Of a stretch of DNA of 64,000 nucleotides, positions 2,817-56,980 are shown piece after piece; within the stretch, counting starts at the first letter, position 1, and each line of letters starts with the position of its first letter. A program made the position numbers and the translations under genes. A model generated the notes under the pieces. It had not been told where the DNA came from. It saw only the letters and a program-made list of their open reading frames with translations, and did not search any database. This stretch comes from Streptomyces mirabilis. GTDB lineage: Bacteria > Actinomycetota > Actinomycetes > Streptomycetales > Streptomycetaceae. The stretch is from assembly GCF_039503195.1 (NCBI RefSeq), contig NZ_JBCJKP010000001.1:3720001-3784000 (forward strand), written 5' to 3'.

Positions 2817-6625
<3,809 letters not shown>

Positions 6626-6628
6626 ACC

Positions 6629-6963
6629 TTCCTCGCCCCCGCCGCCCCTACCCGACCCATCCCTGGGGCCTACGCCCCCAGACCCCCTACCGGCCCGAAC
6701 GGCCTCGTCCTCGAACGCCGGACGGGCTGAAGGGTGCGCGCAGCGCCCCTTCAGGGGCACGAGGAACTGCGCGCCCAGCCCCCACCGGCCCGCGCCCAAA
6801 CGAATCCGGGCGGACGGGAGATCCGAGGCAAAGCCCCGGCCCTAGGGGCACGGGGAACTGCGCGCCCAACCCCCACCGGGCCCGCAGCCGACGGACAGGG
6901 CCGGGGTCTGGGGCGGAGCCCCAGGTCGAGGATGGGTCGGGTAGGGGCGGCGGGGGCGAAGAA
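6629..6963. repeat. 335-bp intergenic element with 34-bp terminal inverted repeats and two internal repeat copies
   Basis: The 344-base gap between era and the next gene is almost wholly this element. The ends 6629-6662 and 6930-6963 are inverted copies matching at 33 of 34 bases (right end reads ggatgggtcgggtagggg...). Inside are two direct copies of a ~45-bp module with core ggggaactgcgcg (6754-6797, 6845-6890), also found at 28836, 28927 and 42330, plus the accessory phrase cgccggacgggctga (near 6715). It contains no ORF. It starts 3 bases after the era stop and ends 6 bases before the stop of the convergent gene, so it could also act as a bidirectional terminator. Confidence 0.85.
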
Positions 6964-6969
6964 GCGGAC

Positions 6970-7323
6970 TCAGCCTGCGGGCGTCGTCAGGTGGACGGTG
7001 CCGTCGGTGCCCGCCAGCAGTACCGGCGTCGCCGACCCACCGAGGTCCCGGACCGCCGCCCGGTCCTCCGAAGAGACCTCCTCCGCCTCGGACACCACCG
7101 CCGCCGCCTCAAGAGACGTCGCCCCGGACGCCACCGCCATCGCGACCGCGGTACGCAACGCGCTCAACCGCAGGGAGGGAAGATCCACCGTCCCCGCGAC
7201 ATACGTACGGCCCGTCTCATCACGTACGGCCGCCCCCTCCGGCACCCCGTTGCGCGCCCGCGCGGAACGGGCCAGGGTGACGATCTTGCGGTCCTCGGGG
7301 TCAAGCGCGCTGCTGTCGGTCAT
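6970..7323 (-). CDS. Cytidine-deaminase-like protein lacking zinc ligands
   Basis: 117 residues beginning MTDSSALDPEDRKIVTLARSAR. The overall length and pattern (N-terminal helix, GAAVRDETGRTYVAGTVDLPSLRLSALRTAVAMAVASG) follow a cytidine deaminase monomer. However, the catalytic H/C-A-E signature is replaced by SALRTA, and the P-C-x-x-C zinc motif is absent; there is no cysteine at all. Catalysis as a zinc deaminase is therefore unlikely, and a structural or ligand-binding role is possible. As I recall, similar proteins sit near era in other Streptomyces. The upstream neighbour on the same strand (the regulator at 7365) is 41 bases away. Confidence 0.7.
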   Translation of the reverse strand: MTDSSALDPEDRKIVTLARSARARNGVPEGAAVRDETGRTYVAGTVDLPSLRLSALRTAVAMAVASGATSLEAAAVVSEAEEVSSEDRAAVRDLGGSATPVLLAGTDGTVHLTTPAG

Positions 7324-7364
7324 GTTCAGAGCATACGAAGGGATCGGAAGCCGCACGCACCGAC

Positions 7365-8240
7365 CTAGCCCGCCACGGGATACATCGAGCCCCGTCGCCC
7401 CTCCGGCGAGGCCAGCCACTCCAGCTTCGCCGCCGTGTTCGCCTCCGGCAGCGGCGTGTGCAGCACGATCGTGAGGTCGGGCCGCGCCGGCACCTTCATC
7501 GCGGTGGACTCGACGGCGAGCAGCCCGACGAGCGGGTGGTCGAGCTCCTTGCGGATCTGCCCGGCGTCCTCGATGTCCCGCTCCTCCCACAGCGCGGCGA
7601 ACTCCGGTGAGGCGTCCCGGAGTTGATCCAGCACCTCCTGGTACCCCTCGTCGTCCGGCGCCGCCGCGCACGACGCGCGGAACTGGGCGACGACCGTGCG
7701 CGCGTTCTTCTCCCAGGTCCGGGACTGCCCCCGGTACAGCGGGTCGGTGAAGAAGTCGATGACGCAGTTCTGCGTGTTGTCGGGCCGCATCCCGAGGACC
7801 ATCCCGGCGGCGTCGTTGTACATGACGCAGTTGTAGTAGGGGTCCATGATGTGCGCCGGATACGGCATCCACGTGTCGATCAGCCGCCGCAGCCCGTCGC
7901 ACATGTCCCGGACCTCGGGCGCGACCTCCGGCGCGGGCGGGTTCAGCCCGGCGAGCAGGTACAGATGGCGTCGTTCGGCGTTGCTGAGCCGCAGGACGCG
8001 GGCGACCGCGTCGAGTACCTGGGGCGAGACCGAGATGTCCCGCCCCTGCTCCAGCCACTGGTACCAGGACGCGCCGACGCCCGCGAGCACGGCCACCTCC
8101 TCGCGGCGCAGCCCCGGCGTGCGGCGGCGGGCCCCGCCGTCCGGCAGACCGGCCTCCGCCGGGGACACCCTCGCCCGACGGCTCATCAGGAAGTCCCGCA
8201 GCTCACGCCGTCGGTGGGTCCTGAGCGCGTCCTCCGTCAC
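7365..8240 (-). CDS. XRE-family transcriptional regulator with MmyB-like ligand domain
   Basis: 291 residues from a GTG preceded by aggggg. The N-terminal ~85 residues form an XRE helix-turn-helix (RRTPGLRREEVAVLAGVGASWYQWLEQGRDISVSPQVLDAVARVL). The rest matches the MmyB-like ligand-binding domain (PF17765), with PAHIMDPYYNCVMYNDAAG and NCVIDFFTDPLYRG. Members are usually repressors or activators of a divergently transcribed gene. Here an MFS exporter starts 90 bases away in the opposite direction, with a perfect inverted repeat between them, so it most likely controls that exporter and itself. A second regulator/exporter pair of the same type is at 58.8-61.3 kb. Confidence 0.88.
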   Translation of the reverse strand: MTEDALRTHRRRELRDFLMSRRARVSPAEAGLPDGGARRRTPGLRREEVAVLAGVGASWYQWLEQGRDISVSPQVLDAVARVLRLSNAERRHLYLLAGLNPPAPEVAPEVRDMCDGLRRLIDTWMPYPAHIMDPYYNCVMYNDAAGMVLGMRPDNTQNCVIDFFTDPLYRGQSRTWEKNARTVVAQFRASCAAAPDDEGYQEVLDQLRDASPEFAALWEERDIEDAGQIRKELDHPLVGLLAVESTAMKVPARPDLTIVLHTPLPEANTAAKLEWLASPEGRRGSMYPVAG

Positions 8241-53661: not shown

Positions 53662-53924
53662 GGCGTCAGGGTACCGCAGCCCCCGCGCGCGCCGCGACGA
53701 GCTTGGGACGGGGTCGGACACGCCGTGCCGCTCGTCACAATCACGCCAAAAAAACTGAACAATATTCAAATATTACTTCGCGTAAGGGGACGCTACGGGA
53801 CAACACAAGGACCTGGTCGCACTTTGATAACAACGCAATAACTCAAACCTCGTACCCATCGGTATGGCTCGACTTAGAGTTCGGCTTCGGGACCGCTTCC
53901 CCGAACCGTTGGGAGTAACCCCCT
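53662..53924. promoter_or_regulatory. AT-rich divergent regulatory region between leuS leader and redox operon
   Basis: A 263-base non-coding region whose centre is strikingly AT-rich for this genome (around 53740-53850). It holds the inverted repeat AATATT-CA-AATATT (53761-53774) and, partly overlapping, TTAC-TTCGC-GTAA (53773-53785), plus an A7 run near 53748. A ribosome site gggag lies just before the ATG at 53925. AT-rich patches of this kind are targets of Lsr2-type nucleoid proteins, which is inference only. Confidence 0.5.
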
Positions 53925-55241
53925 ATGAACCCTCGTCGCAGTGGCAGCACGCTTCCCCGACCGGGCCGCTCGGCCTACGGGGTGGCGACGGCTGCCGTCC
54001 TGCTGCTCATACCCGTGGTCGTGCTGACCGGAGGCAACCGAGTCCAGGACTTCCTCAACTTCGGTGCGGGCGTCCTGTCGCTCGTCTCCCTCACGTGTTC
54101 CGTCATCTGGGGCCTCATCGCCCAGGACCGGCTCATCCTCAACACGCGTCAGCGGATCGTGGCACAGGGCATCCACCGAGTGACGGCCGTCGGCTCGATC
54201 GCGTTCCTCCTGGTGCACATCACCATCAAACTGGCGCTGGACCACACCGTCCTGATCGCCGCGCTGATCCCCTTCAGCCTGGGTGTCAAGGGCAGCGCCG
54301 GACTCATCGGCCTCGGCTCCCTGGCCGGACTGCTCATGATCTTCGTAGGCATCACCGGCGCACTGCGCAACCAGTTCGCGGCCCCGGCACCGGTCGCGGC
54401 ACGCTGGCGCGCGATGCACATGCTGGCGTATCCGGCCCTGTGCGCGGCGCTGATCCACGGTCTCTTCGCGGGACGGGCGGCAAAGCCGTTCTTCATGGTG
54501 TCGTACGAGCTGTGCCTGGTCGCGGTCGGCGGGGCCCTCGCCCTGCGTGCGGCTCCGCACCCCTTCAAGCGCAAGGTCGCCGACCGGATCCTGGCGATCC
54601 TCGGCGAGGGCGGCGGCGCCGGTGGCCGCATGGCCCGCGAGGACCTGACGGCATCCCGTGCCGCCCTCGCGGAGAACTCCCTGCCGGGCTTCGCCCCGCG
54701 CCCCGCGCAGCAGTCCTCGGGCGCCCCCTTCGTACCCCCGCAGCGCACGCCGTCCCCCGAGCAGTCGCTGTACCAGACCCCGGCCGACCCCGCCGCCACG
54801 GACGCCACGTCCGGTTTCGCGGCTGCCTACCGCGCCGTCTCGGGCACGCCCGGCGCGAACCCCGCAGGCGCGGCCCCGACCGAGCGCGTCCAGATGCCCA
54901 TGAACATGCAGCCGACGGAGACGTTCCCCCGCGCCGACGCCGGTGGCAGCACGTCGGGCAGTTGGCCCATCCCCTCGCCGCCGCCGGTCGGTGAGGCGCC
55001 CCGCTCCGCGTACGACCCGCTCGCCGACACGGGATACAACATCCCCGTCTATGACAATTCGGCCACCGGTGGGTACGGCACGAGTGATGTGTACAACAAC
55101 GGTGAGACGAACCCCGCCTTCGGTACGTACAACACCAACGACACGTACGACAGCGGTCCCACGACTGACGTACTGCCGGGCGCCTTCGACGCTCCTGGCT
55201 CCGGTGAACCATGGAACGCCCCTTCCGGAGGCTTTAAGTGA
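53925..55241 (+). CDS. Ferric-reductase-like diheme membrane protein with disordered tail
   Basis: 438 residues. The first ~220 contain about six membrane helices. Two histidine pairs, His84/His98 (H-x13-H) and His165/His178 (H-x12-H), lie on helices as in ferric reductase/NOX membrane domains that bind two stacked hemes. The C-terminal ~210 residues are Pro/Ala-, then Tyr/Asn/Gly/Thr-rich and likely disordered (NIPVYDNSATGGYGTSDVY). It has no FAD/NAD domain of its own; these functions may be supplied by the next gene, which overlaps by 4 bases (GTGA). Together they could pass electrons from NADH across the membrane. The acceptor is unknown. Confidence 0.8.
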   Translation: MNPRRSGSTLPRPGRSAYGVATAAVLLLIPVVVLTGGNRVQDFLNFGAGVLSLVSLTCSVIWGLIAQDRLILNTRQRIVAQGIHRVTAVGSIAFLLVHITIKLALDHTVLIAALIPFSLGVKGSAGLIGLGSLAGLLMIFVGITGALRNQFAAPAPVAARWRAMHMLAYPALCAALIHGLFAGRAAKPFFMVSYELCLVAVGGALALRAAPHPFKRKVADRILAILGEGGGAGGRMAREDLTASRAALAENSLPGFAPRPAQQSSGAPFVPPQRTPSPEQSLYQTPADPAATDATSGFAAAYRAVSGTPGANPAGAAPTERVQMPMNMQPTETFPRADAGGSTSGSWPIPSPPPVGEAPRSAYDPLADTGYNIPVYDNSATGGYGTSDVYNNGETNPAFGTYNTNDTYDSGPTTDVLPGAFDAPGSGEPWNAPSGGFK

Positions 55242-56857
55242 ACGAGGCCCTGCCCGACGTCCCGGAGGTCCGCGTCGTCGGGCTTCCGCAGCTCACGTCG
55301 GGCTTCGACCTGGTTGAACGGCTCGATCTGCCCATGCACCTCAAGGTGCACGGGCCGCTCGAGCCGATGGGCGGTGAACAGCTCGCGGGCCTCGCCGAGG
55401 CGATCGGCCTGAAGGGCCGCGGCGGCGCGGGCTTCCCCTTCGCCAAGAAACTGCGCTCGGTCGCCGAGTCGGCCATCAGCAAGGGCATCCGACCCGTCGT
55501 GGTCGTCAATGGAAGTGAGGACGAACCCGCCTGCCGCAAGGACACGGTGCTCATCAACCGTGCCCCGCACCTCATCCTGGACGGCGCCCTGCTGGCCGCG
55601 GAGGCCATGGGTGCCCGCACCCTGGTCATCGGGGTGACCCGCGAGTCGACCCAGCGGTCCATGGAGGCCGCGCTGGCCGAGCGCGGCCTCAGCGACCGGC
55701 GCGGATCGCCGCTCCGCGCGCGCGTGCAACGCAATCCGGTGCGGATGGTGACCGGAGCGGCCGCTTCGCTCATCCGCTCCATCGACGGCGGCCCGGCCAT
55801 CCCGCCGGGTCGCAAGATCAGCGCGTCGCAGAGCGGCGTCGGCGGCGCGCCCACCCTGCTGTCGAACGCCGAGACGTACGCGCAGCTGGCCATCGCCGCC
55901 CGTATCGGCCCCGACCGCTACCGCAACACCGGTCTGTACGACGAGCCCGGCACCGTCATGCTCACCATCTCCGGGGCGGTCGCCCGCCCCATGGTGATCG
56001 AGGTCCCCACCGGTGTGCCGCTGCGTTACGTGCTCCAGCTGGCCGGCGCCCCGCCGATGCCGCAGGGCGTGCTGACCGGCGGCTACCACGGCAAGTGGCT
56101 GGACGCGGCGACGGTCAACGAGGCGATCGTCTCGCGCAACTCCCTGGACGCGGTGGGCGGCGCGCTCGGCGCCGGCGCGATCCTCCCGATCACCCAGGAG
56201 ACGTGCCCGCTGGGCGAGTCTCTCCGGGTGGCCCAGTGGCTGGCGGAGGAGAGCGCGGGACAGTGCGGTCCCTGCTACCTAGGCCTGCCCGCCGCGGCAC
56301 GCGGCCTGGAGGACATCCTCAACGGCGGCGGACCGGCCGCCCTGGAGGCCGTGAAGCAGGTCGCCAAGGCCGTGAAAAGACGCGGCGCCTGCTCGCATCC
56401 CGACGGCTCGGCGATGTTCATCGAGTCGACCATCAAGGCGTTCACGGACGACCTGGCCGCTCACGTCCTCGGCAATGGCTGCGGAAGGCCCGTGGAGGGC
56501 GTTCTGCCGCTCTTCGAGGGCGGCCAGCTGCCCACCGGCATCCCCGGCGGCCAGGCGGTCGAGGAGGCCGGCCCCAGCCGCCAGAAGATCTTCGTCGACT
56601 GGACACTGTGCCGCGGTCACGGCCTGTGCGCGGACATCCTTCCCGAGGTCTTCGAACTGGGCGCCGACGGCTTCCCCACCGTCGCACAGGCCCAGGTGCC
56701 CCGGTACGCGGAGGCGAAGGCGCTGCGGGCCGTACGCCGCTGCCCGGCGCTCGCCCTGCGCATCGAGGAGGACAGCCGCTCCTCCGCCCCGGCCCGCAAC
56801 AACCTTCCGGTCCTCTCCCAGCGCCGTGGTCGTCGGGCGCTCGGCAGCGGCCGCTGA
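55238..56857 (+). CDS. NuoF-like NADH-oxidising flavoprotein fused to a 3Fe-4S-type ferredoxin
   Basis: 539 residues from a GTG overlapping the previous stop. Residues ~40-240 resemble the NuoF/51-kDa FMN-NADH domain: GLKGRGGAGFPFAKKL and NGSEDEPACRKDTVLINRAPH (a variant of the usual N-x-D-E-x-E-P-G motif). A SLBB-like segment follows (SGAVARPMVIEVPTGVPLR). The 4Fe-4S site is SAGQCGPC plus GACSHPD (Cys about 342, 345, 386). The last ~90 residues are a small ferredoxin: WTLCRGHGLCADILPEVF ... RRCPALAL, with three cysteines (about 459, 465, 502), typical of 3Fe-4S ferredoxins. No other complex I subunits are nearby. Pairing with the diheme protein suggests a dedicated NADH-to-membrane electron route. 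Confidence 0.85.
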   Translation: MNEALPDVPEVRVVGLPQLTSGFDLVERLDLPMHLKVHGPLEPMGGEQLAGLAEAIGLKGRGGAGFPFAKKLRSVAESAISKGIRPVVVVNGSEDEPACRKDTVLINRAPHLILDGALLAAEAMGARTLVIGVTRESTQRSMEAALAERGLSDRRGSPLRARVQRNPVRMVTGAAASLIRSIDGGPAIPPGRKISASQSGVGGAPTLLSNAETYAQLAIAARIGPDRYRNTGLYDEPGTVMLTISGAVARPMVIEVPTGVPLRYVLQLAGAPPMPQGVLTGGYHGKWLDAATVNEAIVSRNSLDAVGGALGAGAILPITQETCPLGESLRVAQWLAEESAGQCGPCYLGLPAAARGLEDILNGGGPAALEAVKQVAKAVKRRGACSHPDGSAMFIESTIKAFTDDLAAHVLGNGCGRPVEGVLPLFEGGQLPTGIPGGQAVEEAGPSRQKIFVDWTLCRGHGLCADILPEVFELGADGFPTVAQAQVPRYAEAKALRAVRRCPALALRIEEDSRSSAPARNNLPVLSQRRGRRALGSGR

Positions 56858-56899: not shown

Positions 56900-56907
56900 A
56901 ATATGTG

Positions 56908-56980
56908 TGGAGCTAAGGAGAATTGAACTCCTGACCTCCTGCATGCCATGCAGGCGCTCTACCAACTGAGCTATAGCCCC
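56908..56980 (-). tRNA. tRNA-Ala (GGC), copy 1
   Basis: 73 bases. The minus strand starts GGGGCTATAGCTCAGTTGG; acceptor stem GGGGCTA/TAGCTCC (one G-T pair), D-arm AGCTCAGTTGGTAGAGC, anticodon arm CCTGC-ATGGCAT-GCAGG with anticodon GGC, T-arm with GTTCAAT. The 3' CCA is not encoded. It is identical to the copy at 61398-61470. Confidence 0.96.

Follow-up and report, generated by a model that had tools for sequence, protein, structure and literature searches.

We investigated a two-gene redox locus in a stretch of 64,000 nucleotides of Streptomyces mirabilis DNA (contig NZ_JBCJKP010000001.1, positions 3,720,001 to 3,784,000), referred to here as the window. The locus codes for a diheme-type membrane protein, P0001, and a NuoF-like protein, P0002, with domains for flavin mononucleotide (FMN), reduced nicotinamide adenine dinucleotide (NADH) and iron-sulfur (Fe-S) clusters. 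The features of the pair are as follows, in window coordinates:

53925 to 55241, + strand: P0001, diheme-type membrane protein of 438 amino acids; six helices in a low-confidence model, with a family link to PF01794-type dihemes
54174 to 54218, + strand: helix 3 His pair, H84 (54174-54176) and H98 (54216-54218), invariant in 121/121 and 83/83 alignment rows
54417 to 54458, + strand: helix 5 His pair, H165 (54417-54419) and H178 (54456-54458), invariant in 121/121 and 83/83 alignment rows
54600 to 55238, + strand: C-terminal tail of P0001, 213 residues, low-complexity and disordered-looking by length and composition, ending in GEPWNAPSGGFK
55238 to 55241, + strand: GTGA start/stop overlap of P0001 and P0002 (translational coupling), read from the sequence
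55238 to 56857, + strand: P0002, NuoF-like flavo-Fe-S protein with a fused ferredoxin, 539 amino acids, from domain scan and fold
55400 to 55888, + strand: Complex1_51K FMN/NADH domain of P0002, 107.8 bits (cut-off 31.2)
55961 to 56053, + strand: SLBB domain of P0002, 27.9 bits (cut-off 27)
56225 to 56464, + strand: NADH_4Fe-4S domain of P0002, 60.9 bits (cut-off 23.5), with three of the four usual N3 Cys (C343, C346, C385)
56588 to 56764, + strand: Fer4_15 ferredoxin domain of P0002, CxxHxxC...CP, 55.8 bits (cut-off 22.4)

An earlier note on this DNA had described a diheme-type membrane protein with a long disordered tail, translationally coupled to a NuoF-like protein with a C-terminal ferredoxin. 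Each of these parts was recovered, as two His pairs ahead of a 213-residue disordered-looking tail, a GTGA overlap, and a NuoF fold joined to a Fer4_15 domain.

The His of P0001 are 14 residues apart in the helix 3 pair and 13 apart in the helix 5 pair. This spacing is the pattern of ferric reductases, and NOX enzymes match it as well. All four His are kept in every row examined, both among P0001 and the 120 homologs listed (121 rows) and in an 83-row alignment that includes distant operon relatives; the earlier note had made its diheme assignment depend on this point. P0001 itself gave no PF01794 match over the cut-off in a Pfam scan, and the dihemes of its paralog and of locus L045 miss Pfam too. 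The family link comes from a profile-profile comparison of P0001 with the dihemes of the ApbE-type operons discussed below (98.7% probability), and both of the two ApbE-type dihemes scanned for PF01794 were over the cut-off. The single-sequence fold model of P0001 was of low confidence and too weak for a fold search. By the positive-inside rule, the tail is probably cytosolic. The last six residues are PSGGYR in 78 rows, PSGGFK in 30, and APSGGF in 8 (116/121 rows in all), and the GEPW of the tail recurs in the more distant locus L064. Flavinylation of the tail, considered on account of its PSGGF/Y end, was rejected on three grounds: there is no Ser/Thr at the last position, a cytosolic location of the tail is likely, and the L064 protein ends in GEPWHAPAGDRP. 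The tail of the L045 diheme carries Arg/Glu-rich repeats.

For P0002, a NuoF fold was found for the model, at 25-29% identity to complex I NuoF/Nqo1. The protein scores 168.6 bits on TIGR01959, the curated NuoF equivalog (cut-off 558.65 bits), and 38.3 bits on the RnfC model (cut-off 245.95 bits). Its FMN-site residues G60, R61, K71, N91, and E94 are kept in at least 117 of 121 rows. In the NADE motif, P0002 has Ser instead of the Asp that contacts FMN in NuoF. As for NADH, the contacts given for Aquifex NuoF in the consulted part of PMC6560083 are E95, E97, D103, and E184. The first three align with E94 (kept in 119/121 rows), E96 (118/121), and D102 (80/81) of P0002, the numbering being assigned by motif and not from coordinates, and a counterpart of E184 is presumably absent. 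P0002 has GAA in place of the GEE motif of the NADH pocket; the first Glu of the motif is kept in 72 and is Ala in 49 of the 121 rows, and in 81 wider rows it is kept in 61, Gln in 17, and Ala in 3. The earlier expectation of FMN and NADH binding thus holds for the FMN-site residues and is undercut by the NADH pocket, where both GEE Glu are Ala in the window clade. Since this clade has no GEE Glu pair, NADH is a plausible candidate for the donor. Two Cys flank the NADH_4Fe-4S domain, C323 directly before it (kept in 79/81 rows) and C415 directly after it (77/81), and either is a candidate replacement ligand for an N3-type cluster.

The earlier note had suggested a survey of conserved linkage, and we surveyed 121 Streptomyces genomes, the window genome included, counting a diheme gene as linked if it lay on the same strand within 2.5 kb upstream. 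NuoF-like genes were split by E-value, at a point of our own choosing, into a higher- and a lower-scoring group. The higher-scoring gene occurs at 102 places in 95 of the 121 genomes (about four in five), and at 95 of these 102 places it adjoins a diheme gene upstream on the same strand, so the linkage is conserved. In four genomes with an unlinked place (G302, G340, G369, and G396; 7 such places overall), the unlinked diheme match sits on another contig. The lower-scoring group has a linked P0001-type diheme at just 5 of 19 places, and conversely our lists gave no NuoF-like partner for 11 of 111 diheme places. Two single copies were also seen. An extra NuoF-like copy, 88% identical and without a linked diheme, lies near a contig start (G341:C1:137813-139390), and in G246 (L063) a NuoF-like gene beside leuS is split across two frames, with no diheme match, as a decayed copy or an assembly error.

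Next, named genomes were scanned with the family alignment, which gave 80 loci. These are best matches only, and the counts therefore describe this NuoF-like/diheme family. With operon genes called by profiles built in this analysis, the family is mostly an operon that consists of a small membrane protein, an ApbE flavin transferase, the diheme, the NuoF-like protein, and a ferredoxin. The diheme, NuoF-like protein, and ferredoxin occur together in 71 of the 80 loci, ApbE is present in 66, and the order ApbE-diheme-NuoF-like-ferredoxin is found in 62. A ferredoxin lies within 400 nucleotides downstream of the NuoF-like gene in 80/80 loci; it is a separate open reading frame (ORF) in 78 and forms one ORF with NuoF in 2, both in Streptomycetaceae. 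One operon ApbE was confirmed by Pfam (E 1.4e-36). Our own FMN-bind profile had no match in the 80 loci, which is weak evidence, as the profile was built from three segments only. The hosts belong to Acidimicrobiia, Solirubrobacterales, Actinomycetes, Dormibacterota, and Chloroflexota, with one labelled Acidobacteria.

We placed the window pair in this family with a tree made by a quick method, with support from the Shimodaira-Hasegawa-like approximate likelihood ratio test (SH-aLRT) only. The window and paralog types group together with L140 and L142 (SH-aLRT 99) among the ApbE-type rows, and the nesting of the window clade among these rows rests on forks of 84 to 99. On this tree, the window pair either descends from the operons that have ApbE and the small protein or is their sister. 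Because of this grouping, the window pair looks like a Streptomyces branch in which NuoF has been fused to the ferredoxin and the linkage to apbE has been lost. Six loci from genomes of the same class (L055-L060) form a separate branch; the neighbors of their NuoF-like genes resemble, by eye, genes for P450, acyl-CoA dehydrogenase, and amidohydrolase, and there is no diheme match.

The window genome holds two further traces of the family. The first is a second cassette, 50% identical and with the same coupling (L012 7979-10290). Divergent from it (L012 11175-13935) are a PF01794 diheme, a Fer4_15-Pyr_redox_2 fusion, and an 86-residue single-helix protein; the divergent pair thus has the same ferredoxin module joined to another flavoprotein, beside another diheme. 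The second trace, recognised by eye, is a third NuoF-like sequence after proS (L013 6940-7575). From about 6780 to 7575, L013 encodes the beginning of a small tethered protein and then, in different reading frames, the Fe-S region at the C-terminus of a NuoF-like protein and a ferredoxin; neither ApbE nor a diheme lies between the small-protein start and the NuoF-like part. Copies with ApbE, diheme, NuoF-like protein, and ferredoxin also stand after proS in L093, L098, L112, and L120, and the L013 trace looks like a decayed remnant of an ApbE-type operon.

Other branches of the family have genes for extracytoplasmic proteins beside the pair. A lipoprotein with four PF03640 (Lipoprotein_15) repeats adjoins the paralog-type pair in 6 of 8 Streptomyces loci (L171-L175 and L177) and is a possible extracytoplasmic redox partner; it was not seen in L170 or in L176, where only about 1 kb of contig remains downstream. 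A PucR-type regulator is divergent from the paralog-type pair in both loci scanned (L170 and L172). In L045 (4274-9082), which belongs to another family, a TlpA-like lipoprotein and a DsbD_TM-like protein lie downstream of the pair, the DsbD_TM match being under its cut-off (23.9 against 27.1 bits).

In the ApbE-type operons, the short protein encoded upstream of ApbE has one hydrophobic segment and a Ser/Thr/Pro-rich tail. The proteins with an [ST]G[AGS][ST] end are located as follows, in locus coordinates:

L093 4967-5398; L098 within 4634-5425; L112 5036-5419; L120 5033-5377; others of L065-L144: small single-helix proteins with an [ST]G[AGS][ST] end

Among 62 loci with a readable upstream region, the small protein ends in this motif in 29, in a CxxxPSGxxxC-like loop in 6, and otherwise in 22, with no candidate in 5. 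The motif end is therefore found in 29 of 57 small proteins, compared with 2 of 641 control hydrophobic ORFs in the same loci and 3 of 782 in a second control. Shuffling the last 50 residues of the 57 proteins (2000 shuffles) left a mean of 0.76 with the motif and a maximum of 5, and 47 of 3021 interior tetramers of the small proteins carry it. With a broader motif set, chosen afterwards, 45 of 57 proteins match, against an average of 7.8 and at most 17 after shuffling and 15/782 control ORFs. Near-variants such as SSGS, SGQS, and SGGSGH were recognised afterwards among the 22 other ends, some of which look like unrelated ORFs. The variants with a Cys-bracketed PSG loop at the end, for example CYTTPSGSTVCY, are those of L078, L080, L085, L087, L092, and L094. 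A homolog search with the small protein gave no match at E 0.001, perhaps due to low complexity.

These ends resemble sites of flavin transfer. According to the consulted part of PMC12052999, ApbE recognises D-x-x-[ST]-G-A-[ST] and attaches FMN to the last residue, and artificial flavin tags perform best at a terminus. In the consulted part of PMC11334425, the flavinylated sites described lie for the most part within folded domains, whereas FMN_red proteins carry theirs on a C-terminal extension that is unstructured. Five Streptomyces copies of the small protein (L093, L098, L109, L112, and L120) end in DSTSGAS, which fits the ApbE motif. The small protein is probably a natural C-terminal flavin tag, flavinylated at its last residue. 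A point against this is that a hydrophobic stretch before the ApbE domain is missing in 57 of 61 cases (at a threshold of our own). Such ApbEs look cytosolic and the small-protein tail, by the positive-inside rule, lies outside, so modification before export would be required. No account of the small tethered protein was found in the literature searched. At slightly less than even odds, the parent system as a whole would be a split NADH-to-heme relay ending in a carrier that has no flavin domain. This carrier would have a single membrane helix and a disordered Ser/Thr/Pro tether, and the operon's ApbE would join FMN to its final residue (C-terminal SGGS or SGAS), so that the flavin could swing from the outer heme to acceptors further away and back. 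The window pair would then be a Streptomyces branch with a fused ferredoxin and the carrier replaced, its decayed parent operon still standing after proS.

We propose, with a probability of roughly 0.6, that the two proteins of the window pair export electrons across the membrane, from a donor in the cytosol by way of FMN, Fe-S, ferredoxin, and two hemes to an acceptor on the other side. The donor, in all likelihood NAD(P)H, would reduce the FMN of the NuoF-like protein. Electrons would then pass through an N3-like cluster with altered ligands to the fused ferredoxin, on to the inner and then the outer heme of the diheme protein, and finally to an acceptor outside. The gene pair, its domains, the NuoF fold of the model, the kept His, the linkage, and the ferredoxin that is a gene of its own in relatives and fused in Streptomycetaceae are observed; the cofactor content, direction, donor, and acceptor of the relay are inferred. 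Our main argument for outward flow is that the extracytoplasmic partner varies between branches while diheme, NuoF, and ferredoxin stay.

Several observations weigh against such a relay. The NADH pocket reads GAAAS in all 43 rows that are at least 84% identical to P0002 (P0002 included), and the first N3 Cys is missing in 121/121 and 81/81 rows. We found no match at E 1e-60 in 25 of the 121 Streptomyces genomes, and the pair is therefore dispensable. No acceptor gene was recognised adjoining the window pair, and no ApbE or FMN-binding gene is near it, the only ApbE over the cut-off in this genome being 1.4 Mb away, with FMN_bind genes. As ApbE and the small protein are both missing nearby, the window branch would have to use another acceptor.

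The surroundings of the pair add two features:

53827 to 53848, + strand: upstream element ATAACAACGCAATAACTCAAAC, a possible promoter or operator, from its conservation among Streptomyces upstream regions
56907 to 56980, - strand: tRNA-Ala(GGC), the downstream boundary of the pair

In an alignment of 19 Streptomyces upstream regions, the 22-mer is exact in 15 and has at most one mismatch in 18; allowing up to 3 mismatches, the copy ahead of P0001 is the sole one in the genome. The region upstream of 53925 had no clear match to a known promoter type by eye, none in a promoter scan, and no Rfam match. The neighbors of the pair are leuS (by eye) and the tRNA-Ala gene, and the pair is not in the nuo operon.

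The altered NADH pocket invites a different account of the input side. The window clade may no longer be fed by NADH, with the FMN domain serving as a wire and the ferredoxin domain as a port for electron exchange with a ferredoxin or a P450-type partner in the cytosol; membrane potential is a possible driving force, in an Rnf-like logic. The uniform GAA of the 43 close rows speaks for this, as do the 17 Gln and 3 Ala at the first Glu in the 81 wider rows. Fer4_15-type ferredoxins often serve P450s, which we also count in its favor. However, E94, E96, and D102, aligned to NADH contacts, are kept, and 61 of the 81 relatives retain the first GEE Glu; we regard this account as unlikely.

On the output side, the outer heme might itself reduce metal or O2, which would make the pair a dedicated ferric/cupric reductase or a superoxide-making NOX-like enzyme. 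This agrees with the His spacing of 14 and 13, a diheme geometry typical of the ferric-reductase/NOX superfamily, and with the lack of a recognised acceptor gene beside the window pair, but the other branches do have extracytoplasmic partner genes, and inspection by eye of the ORFs of at least 230 amino acids from 44 to 64 kb of the window revealed no gene for iron or copper. Its chances appear a shade poorer than those of a non-NADH input. Very improbable, in our view, is a redox sensor or assembly factor in place of a catalytic relay, with the disordered cytosolic tail and its conserved end as the output. The long tail and the gene-specific conserved upstream element would suit such a role, but the family as a whole retains the ferredoxin and most residues of the cofactor sites, and the operon relatives include a flavin transferase.

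The electron-export relay that we favor has a published relative. Meheust et al. 2021 (PMC8238504, as far as the consulted part goes) reported MsrQ-like clusters, mostly in Actinobacteria, 31 of them with NuoF-like proteins, and proposed NAD(P)H as the donor. Because of this report, the core idea is already published, and the description of the locus as an undescribed system in the earlier note does not hold. Of the "undescribed NADH-to-heme route" proposed there, the two-protein set of NuoF-like protein and diheme stands, "undescribed" has to be dropped, and the NADH donor is left as plausible. The published clusters share with our pair a six-helix diheme and a NuoF-like (PF10589) cytosolic donor in separate, adjacent genes. 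In contrast to them, judging from the consulted part of that paper, the window pair has no nearby ApbE or FMN-binding gene, a ferredoxin fused to NuoF, and a long diheme tail. A ferredoxin gene and a small tethered protein go unmentioned for those clusters in the consulted main text of PMC8238504.

The better-known systems are further away. Compared with complex I NuoF/Nqo1, P0002 has lost one N3 Cys and the NADE Asp and has gained a ferredoxin fusion, and no NuoE or NuoG gene was recognised adjoining it. An ordinary complex I NuoF was rejected as an identity for P0002 on model score, missing Cys, and gene context. The same genome has a canonical-looking NuoF homolog at 6004715, 29% identical to P0002, which bears out the earlier separation of the pair from complex I. 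With the ferric reductase/NOX/MsrQ superfamily (PF01794), the diheme shares the His pairs of helix 3 and helix 5, but it is without a flavin adenine dinucleotide (FAD)/NAD domain; two ferric reductases with their own FAD/NAD part, seen by eye elsewhere in the genome, agree with the distinction drawn in the earlier note. Rnf/Nqr resembles the pair in that RnfC is an FMN protein with an SLBB domain that supplies electrons to a redox subunit in the membrane, and in the flavinylation among relatives; no other Rnf gene was recognised by eye beside the window pair.

No study of the pair was found in the literature searched, including by the expected Streptomyces coelicolor locus numbers. As far as our searches show, three things are apparently new. 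The ferredoxin is a constant third component and has become fused, Streptomyces has a branch without ApbE whose NADH pocket is altered, and the small protein offers a candidate for a flavin tag at the C-terminus. If the flavin-tag reading is true, a disordered tether with a flavin at its free end would be a carrier design unlike the mostly folded flavinylated proteins described in the consulted parts of the literature. If the relay is right, soil actinomycetes would gain an NADH- or ferredoxin-to-outside route apart from complex I.

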